Source of the DNA: a bacterium
GTDB lineage: Bacteria; Patescibacteriota; Minisyncoccia; UBA6257; UBA9933
Assembly: GCA_030693235.1 (NCBI GenBank)
Contig: JAUYBE010000012.1
Coordinates: 1-39,598 of the forward strand
Direction: 5' to 3'
Length of the DNA: 39,598 bases
The translations under genes were made by a program, and so were the position numbers. Under the pieces are notes generated by a model. The model was not told the origin of the DNA, did no database searches, and saw only the letters and a program-made list of their open reading frames with translations. This document shows, piece after piece, positions 9,619-36,663 of this stretch (position 1 is its first letter; every line of letters begins with the position of its first letter).

Positions 9619-9679
9619 ATTGTTAAATATATAAGAATTTTAAGCTTTACTCAAGATAACTAGCGCTTATACTTAAATT

Positions 9680-10135
9680 ATGCCCATAATCACCACCAAC
9701 AAACGCGCCTATTTTGACTATGAAATTCTGGAAACCTACGAAGCGGGAATTGAGCTGAAAGGTTTTGAAGTGAAAGCCGTTAAAACCGGTCGGATAAATC
9801 TGGCCGGGGCTTTTGCGATAATCAAAAATAATCAGATTTGGCTTTTAAATGCCGATATTCCCGCTTACCAGCCGAAAAACGCGCCGGAAGATTATGATTC
9901 AAAAAGAACGCGGCGGCTGCTTCTTAAAAAATCGGAAATTAAAAATCTAATCGGCCGAATTCAGGAAAAAGGCTTGACTTTGGCGCCTTTGAAAGTTTAT
10001 ACTAAGGGCGAGAATGGAAAGATAAAAATAGAGATTGGTTTGGTCAAGAGCAGAAAAAAATCGGACAAGAGAGAATTGATTAAAAAAAGAGACGCAAAAC
10101 GGGAATGCAAGGCTTCGATGGCAGCACTTTTATAA
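9680..10135 (+). CDS. smpB: SsrA-binding protein SmpB
   Basis: NKRAYFDYEILETYEAGIELKGFEVKAVKTGRINLAGAFA, LYTKG-type core (VYTKGENGKIKIEIGLVKSRKKSDKRELIKKRDAKRE). Confidence 0.97.
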   Translation: MPIITTNKRAYFDYEILETYEAGIELKGFEVKAVKTGRINLAGAFAIIKNNQIWLLNADIPAYQPKNAPEDYDSKRTRRLLLKKSEIKNLIGRIQEKGLTLAPLKVYTKGENGKIKIEIGLVKSRKKSDKRELIKKRDAKRECKASMAALL

Positions 10136-10459
10136 AATCGCAAGCCGAGGATAATTCGTCACCTCGTCAATCATCGGATTAAAACATATCTGCCAAAAAC
10201 AGATTAGCCAATCACTTGGCTCCCGCTTTCGCTTTCGCTTAAGCGGCATCGCTTAATTGAAGCCTGATAAATCAAAGCGGTGTTATATTTTCAGGATATA
10301 TTTCAATGTCCGCCGAAACATTGAAATGAAAATTTTCGGCAAAGGATTATAAAGTTTTTCGCCTAATTCATACTTCATAATTCATAATTCCAATTAGGAC
10401 AAGCTTGTAGAAGTTTTATAAAATAGTTGCCAGATGGGGCTTCAATGCCCCCATTTCCA
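10101..10459 (+). ncRNA. ssrA: Transfer-messenger RNA (tmRNA)
   Basis: 5' GGGAATG pairs with 3' CATTTCC (7 bp, one G-U); GGCTTCGATGG ~ GGNTTCGACGG; GCAAGCCGAGG...CCTCGT matches the PK1 signature; H2 strands GGCA/TGCC, TTTTATAAAA/TTTTATAAAA, CAAGC/GCTTG pair; 3' AAGCTTGTAGA; T-arm GGGGCTTCAATGCCCC; tag ORF GCC AAA AAC AGA TTA GCC AAT CAC TTG GCT CCC GCT TTC GCT TTC GCT TAA = AKNRLANHLAPAFAFA. CCA not encoded. Confidence 0.88.
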
Positions 10460-10468
10460 CACATAAAT

Positions 10469-10975
10469 ATTATTCAACAATACAAAATAAACAATCAAAT
10501 AAAATCGCCAGAGCTGCGGATAATAGACGAAACCGGAAATAATCTTGGAGTTATGCCTCTTGAGGCGGCGTTAAAATTATCAATTGAGAAAGGGCTGGAT
10601 TTAATCGAAATCGCGGCAGCCGCCAAACCGCCGGTGGCAAAAATTATCAGCTATGATAAATTCCGATATCAAAAAGAAAAAGAGCTGCGGAAGCAAAAGG
10701 CTGTTCAAAAAACCGGTGAATTCAAACAAATCCGCATTAGCGTCCGAGCCGCCAAAAACGACCTAGAAATCAAAGTTAAAAAAATCGAAGAGTTTTTGAA
10801 TGATGGACATAAGATTGAAATTGTTTTAGCTTTAAGAGGCCGCGAAAAATATCTGAAAGATTGGGCGCGCCAAAAAATGGATGAATTTTTGAAAATGATC
10901 GGCGCTGAATATAAAATAATCATAGAACCGAAATTCGGCGGCAAGGGATTGATAACGCAAATAACAAAGAAATAA
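10469..10975 (+). CDS. infC: Translation initiation factor IF-3 (start uncertain; probably a non-AUG ATT/ATA near 10463-10472)
   Basis: INNQIKSPELRIIDETGNNLGVMPLEAALKLSIEKGLDLIEIAAAAKPPVAKIISYDKFRYQKEKE...; the track start at 10427 and the ATG at 10445 lie within the tmRNA. Confidence 0.9.
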   Translation: MIQQYKINNQIKSPELRIIDETGNNLGVMPLEAALKLSIEKGLDLIEIAAAAKPPVAKIISYDKFRYQKEKELRKQKAVQKTGEFKQIRISVRAAKNDLEIKVKKIEEFLNDGHKIEIVLALRGREKYLKDWARQKMDEFLKMIGAEYKIIIEPKFGGKGLITQITKK

Positions 10976-36580: not shown

Positions 36581-36588
36581 CAAAATTG

Positions 36589-36663
36589 TAGCCCCGACGG
36601 GATTTGAACCCGTGTTTTCAGGATGAAAACCTGATGTCCTGGACCGAACTAGACGACAGGGCC
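36589..36663 (-). tRNA. tRNA-Glu (TTC)
   Basis: GGCCCTGTCGTCTAGTTCGGTCCAGGACATCAGGTTTTCATCCTGAAAACACGGGTTCAAATCCCGTCGGGGCTA; anticodon TTC; CCA not encoded. Confidence 0.94.

Follow-up and report, generated by a model that had tools for sequence, protein, structure and literature searches.

A recurrent overlap of smpB with the tmRNA gene in Patescibacteria, and a candidate ssrA promoter within smpB codons

In the 39,598-nt stretch of patescibacterial DNA analyzed here (the window), smpB and the tmRNA gene ssrA lie on the same strand, and the stop codon of smpB falls inside ssrA. The features on which our argument draws are as follows.

9646-9673, + strand: candidate smpB promoter, TTTACT-16-TATACT (consensus scan only)
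9680-10135, + strand: smpB, 151 aa, stop TAA at 10133-10135 (open reading frame list and Pfam)
9974-10003, + strand: candidate ssrA promoter inside smpB (consensus scan and codon conservation across linked genomes)
between 10100 and 10101, + strand: predicted RNase P cleavage site, in smpB codon 141 (from the covariance model 5' end)
10101-10135, + strand: smpB/ssrA overlap, smpB codon 141 (last two bases) to codon 151 plus stop
10101-10459, + strand: ssrA (tmRNA), mature 5' end to discriminator A (RF00023 and an independent fold)
10192-10242, + strand: tmRNA tag reading frame, AKNRLANHLAPAFAFA followed by a stop (sequence read directly)
10469-10975, + strand: infC (IF-3), directly downstream of ssrA (Pfam IF3_N and IF3_C)

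Upstream, smpB is divergent from ileS across a 61-nt intergenic region (window 9619-9680). The smpB ATG lies 7 nt after the TATACT of its candidate promoter, and the smpB mRNA may therefore be leaderless. On the far side of ssrA, infC probably starts with AUU at 10469 or 10472, 9-12 nt past the tmRNA discriminator base; the 5' end of infC in relatives carries a conserved ATT ATT CAR CAA TAY, and several have no in-frame ATG, GTG or TTG.

The Rfam covariance model RF00023 matched the window at 10101-10462 over its full length (model positions 1-374), with 103.7 bits against a gathering threshold of 47 bits (E 1.2e-39). The match begins at the very base, 10101, that the original prediction had given as the tmRNA 5' end. 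The acceptor stem pairs 10101-10107 with 10452-10458 and includes a G3.U pair (G10103.U10456); the discriminator is A10459, and the 3' CCA is not encoded. An unconstrained fold of 10101-10459 closed the same acceptor stem, with z = -5.9. The RNA combines an alanine-type acceptor (G3.U70) with an internal tag frame that has a small or hydrophobic end (AKNRLANHLAPAFAFA). Together, the covariance model, the acceptor stem, the tag frame and the free fold argue for a tmRNA that is intact and begins at 10101. ARAGORN, run on the window, did not call the tmRNA at 10101-10462 even though the covariance model gives it 103.7 bits, and tools of this kind may be under-calling tmRNA in related genomes.

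The smpB product matched the SmpB profile PF01668 with 165.8 bits over profile positions 1-141, the DKR of the tail core included. Counted from DKR, its tail has 23 residues, which is inside the range of relatives without an overlap. The overlap measures 35 nt and takes in, on the tmRNA side, the 5' strand of the acceptor stem, the D-loop and the start of the next helix. The tmRNA 5' end splits smpB codon 141 after its first base, leaving 140 residues encoded upstream; these contain the tail core DKRELIKKRDAK, which thus precedes the predicted cut, while the last 11 residues (RECKASMAALL) and the stop are encoded within the tmRNA. The original prediction had placed the smpB stop inside the tmRNA gene, with a 35-nt overlap holding the last 11 codons and the stop; the open reading frame list and the RF00023 5' end reproduce this exactly. 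Any RNase P cut in a transcript spanning both genes would necessarily take away the stop codon of smpB. The genome contains RNase P RNA as well as ClpP.

Among the 246 genomes of the order surveyed, all metagenome-assembled, tmRNA was located in 221, and 216 loci were aligned. The aligned 5' end is GGG in 215 of the 216, the exception being cut by a contig end, and the window tmRNA scores at the low end of the range of its relatives. In 169 genomes smpB precedes ssrA on the same strand (the linked set), and in 25 of these (15%), from 10 of 27 families, the smpB stop lies inside ssrA. The overlap is 50 nt in one genome, 41 in three, 35 in the window, 33 in one, 18 in three, 11 in one, 10 in two, 8 in ten and 1 in three. 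All ten 8-nt overlaps end in a UGA stop formed by tmRNA bases 6-8. Linked genomes without an overlap mostly have a gap of 0-60 nt between the two genes. On a tree of SmpB the overlap state changes 24 times, an upper estimate given that SmpB is a short protein, and close relatives differ: G036 overlaps by 8 nt whereas G037 has a gap of 11 nt, and G218 has a gap of 23 nt whereas G216 overlaps by 41 nt.

In one family, f22, an overlap of 41-50 nt is found in three genera, with one member of the same genus, G218, lacking it. There (L041, L108, L178, L232 and L251) the tmRNA 5' end, GGGAGUGG, encodes the R-E-W of the SmpB tail, and the sequence that it opens encodes REWSRLRRNIETK, a canonical-looking tail (REW...), such that the tmRNA acceptor and D-arm and a conserved protein motif occupy shared bases across the three genera. 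This conserved overlap is suggestive of selection. For the order as a whole, we rejected overlap conservation as evidence of selection in view of the turnover on the SmpB tree. We also rejected the idea that UUUGA in the tmRNA D-loop exists to give smpB its stop codon, as UUUGA is common without an overlap too.

As a control, we took about 0.8 Mb of the window genome and of genome G205, with raw open reading frames of at least 100 aa, and considered the 35 tRNAs with a same-strand frame ending no more than 150 nt upstream. Seven of them were overlapped by the upstream frame, one of the seven frames being doubtful, and the window genome holds at least five cases of a coding sequence overlapping a tRNA. 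The rate of smpB-ssrA overlap is not above that of overlaps between coding sequences and tRNAs, and such an overlap is not unusual for these genomes. Together with the turnover, this tRNA-like rate is better explained by compaction of the genome than by a dedicated loop. In the proposed comparison of smpB-ssrA spacing across relatives, the overlap does recur, but it is gained and lost, and it is no more frequent than at tRNA genes. Two of the seven tRNA overlaps may be recorded here. One is a tRNA-Glu gene at window 36588-36663 on the minus strand, into which a cysteine desulfurase frame (469 aa, PF00266) extends so that its stop lies 15 nt inside; the other is a tRNA-Pro on the reverse strand of contig C4 of genome G000 (among loci L265-L272), whose 5' end is overlapped by 10 nt by a glutamate racemase frame.

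A consensus scan of the window identified a candidate promoter within smpB, with a -35 element TTGACT (9974-9979), an 18-nt spacer and a -10 element TATACT (9998-10003). The tmRNA follows some 97 nt further on; transcription would be expected to start near 10010, giving a leader of about 91 nt. At the same site, relatives carry TTGAC-N-18-TATANT, in the codons for the conserved SmpB motif LTxxPxxxY[NTS]. We scored this site at fixed offset against the sigma70-type consensus TTGACA-18-TATAAT, out of a maximum of 12. Because the hexamers sit on conserved residues, the match is partly forced by the protein, yet 118 of 131 ssrA-linked genomes reach at least 9, where protein and codon usage would predict 50 +/- 4.7, and 68 reach at least 11, where 5.6 are expected with both held fixed. 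Codon choice points the same way. For the -35 Leu, 134 of 139 genes use TTG, compared with 284 of 1721 Leu codons in the rest of smpB, and when all smpB columns of the linked genes are ranked by synonymous codon bias, the -35 Leu (TTG in 118 of 130) and the last -10 codon (AAT, ACT or AGT) come first and second. Unlinked smpB genes use other codons at both columns.

A score of at least 9 was found in 2 of 15 unlinked smpB genes, a contrast with the linked genes that is partly phylogenetic since the unlinked genes cluster by lineage, many of them in family f5; the unlinked genes of G164 and G034 retain the promoter. A tree-based comparison of independent pairs, relating promoter to linkage, offered too few pairs that were informative. 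In a set of named genomes, spanning Nomura-, Zambryski-, Giovannoni-, Nealson-, Portnoy-, Sung- and Niyogibacteria, the promoter is present in 43 of 45 linked genomes versus 1 of 9 that are unlinked or at a contig end, although this set and the G-numbered one are not fully independent, as some records may be identical genomes. It recurs there in Nomura-, Giovannoni-, Nealson-, Portnoy- and Sungbacteria. Elsewhere in the phylum, in other classes, it was seen in 6 of 11 linked genes and in 1 of 18 unlinked ones. The score reaches 9 in 22 of 28 genes with a gap of 60-200 nt, and 24 of the 25 overlap genomes retain the promoter. Synonymous shuffling of the last 140 nt before ssrA gave no promoter excess (7.63 vs 7.51), but that interval missed the motif, which begins, at the median, about 157 nt before ssrA.

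Judged by its sequence, ssrA appears to have its own sigma70-type promoter within smpB codons. We found no description of an smpB-internal ssrA promoter in a literature search, and the 2025 tmRNA database paper (PMC11915505) mentions neither ‘Patescibacteria’ by name nor promoters. Such a promoter, conserved upstream of ssrA, would leave the derivation of tmRNA from the smpB transcript unsupported and would undercut the idea that each transcript yields either full-length SmpB or tmRNA, both of which had been proposed for this locus. Two observations could have told against a self-tagging loop here, namely a separate ssrA promoter and the lack of any overlap in close relatives; the first seems to hold, by sequence, whereas the overlap is present in some relatives only.

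The analysis shows that the overlap exists, that it recurs and turns over among relatives, and that the promoter sequence is conserved and biased in its codons. Our reading is that smpB probably drifted into ssrA by compaction while the main ssrA promoter lay inside smpB, with non-stop smpB mRNA a tolerated side effect. In a compacted Parcubacteria-type genome with smpB and ssrA head to tail, the smpB stop would have drifted 35 nt into ssrA, and ssrA would be driven mainly by the sigma70-type promoter in the LTxxPxxxY[NTS] codons, whose activity we infer. The short precursor made from it, its leader of about 91 nt trimmed by RNase P, would yield tmRNA and leave smpB unaffected. A long transcript would start upstream of smpB and continue through ssrA; with its tmRNA part folded, an RNase P cut would leave smpB without a stop, a non-stop message open to trans-translation, and ClpP would be available to degrade the tagged protein. 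Since cut long transcripts would be non-stop, SmpB would be made mainly from uncut ones, and the net effect would be to cap SmpB output from old transcripts. Non-stop smpB is most likely a tolerated side effect of this kind, exerting mild negative feedback, and not a selected switch.

It is possible, though unlikely, that the overlap is silent. Translation of smpB would then precede tmRNA folding, ribosomes would keep the 5' strand open, and RNase P would act mostly on the short transcript; the corollary, that hardly any non-stop smpB mRNA is translated, is unlikely to the same degree. The internal promoter would give just such a short precursor, without the smpB start codon, and an RNase P substrate requires a 3' end that is made some 360 nt later. 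However, a scan found no terminator between smpB and ssrA on the + strand, so that the long transcript would in time become an RNase P substrate as well.

The original prediction went further, to a self-tagging loop in which every tmRNA matured from an smpB co-transcript costs one smpB message, so that the two levels are coupled; in a selected loop of this kind the overlap would be kept because of the coupling. The part of it that finds support is the geometry, by which RNase P cleavage forces loss of the smpB stop, along with the genomic presence of RNase P RNA and ClpP; the notion that the overlap is special or dedicated is not supported. Recurrence in 10 families, the f22 overlaps of 41-50 nt over three genera with a REW... 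tail encoded by the tmRNA 5' end, and the precedent of arfA non-stop autoregulation (cited in PMC4131195) all speak for selection. Nevertheless, we consider such a loop very unlikely given the conserved internal promoter, gain and loss among close relatives (G036/G037, G218/G216), the equal frequency of overlaps at tRNA genes, and overlaps that are mostly 1-18 nt and end in whichever stop codons the tmRNA sequence happens to offer. We saw no evidence of selection for the loop, and recurrence with turnover, together with the tRNA control, favours compaction. A wrongly placed tmRNA 5' end or a decayed gene, either of which would make the overlap unreal, is scarcely credible: the missing ARAGORN call and the low-end score lean that way, but the full-length model match, the GGG 5' end shared with nearly all aligned relatives, the acceptor stem with G3.U, the intact tag frame and the fold (z = -5.9) do not.

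Overlap of smpB with ssrA is frequent in Patescibacteria, contrary to the 2014 conclusion that it is confined to Carsonella, and natural pairs with and without it allow the effect on SmpB levels to be compared. If the internal promoter is confirmed, it would be a clear case of a protein-coding motif that has long been selected for transcription as well, which would help to explain the lasting linkage of smpB and ssrA in these genomes and would offer a rare handle on promoters of uncultured bacteria. A broader proposition, which we think quite unlikely as a whole, is that throughout Parcubacteria and related Patescibacteria a core motif of SmpB also serves as the promoter of ssrA and so ties the genes together, and that in overlap lineages RNase P gates SmpB while tmRNA supply is independent. 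Were such gating true, the rescue system would limit its own protein cofactor in those lineages.

The feedback idea is already known; what is new is where the overlap occurs. In half of the Carsonella strains smpB extends into ssrA, as Hudson, Lau and Williams (2014; PMC4131195) reported, crediting the first note to Mao et al. (2009). They stated the same non-stop feedback idea, and their survey found the overlap nowhere but in Carsonella, which they believed to be the sole case. In the window, as in Carsonella, the smpB stop lies in the ssrA 5' region on the same strand, here by 35 nt, and processing of the tmRNA should leave an smpB mRNA that lacks a stop. The window differs in belonging to another phylum and in keeping the DKR tail core of SmpB, and in its group the overlap recurs in many families, with a conserved candidate ssrA promoter inside smpB.

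Escherichia coli arfA is likewise a rescue-factor gene whose mRNA is cut before the stop by an RNase, with trans-translation limiting synthesis of ArfA. The cut there is made at an RNase III hairpin, and here, by prediction, by RNase P. Turnover and the tRNA-like rate give no indication that selection keeps the arrangement in relatives, as an arfA-type system would imply. The truncated ArfA protein is the active form, whereas tail-truncated SmpB should be impaired or degraded. In E. coli, truncation of the SmpB tail abolishes activity in vivo (PMC4151336), which makes it unlikely that SmpB(1-140) plus tag is an active form.

Coding sequences that overlap tRNA genes, of which 250 cases were listed in about 2000 genomes (Hudson 2014, Table 4; PMC4131195), also place an upstream stop inside an RNase P-processed RNA; at smpB-ssrA, by contrast, the overlapped RNA itself rescues non-stop messages. 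In Streptomyces coelicolor, tmRNA comes mostly from its own ssrA promoter, with smpB nearby (PMC2635970). The candidate promoter in the window differs in lying within conserved smpB codons, with an 18-nt spacing that is set by the protein motif.
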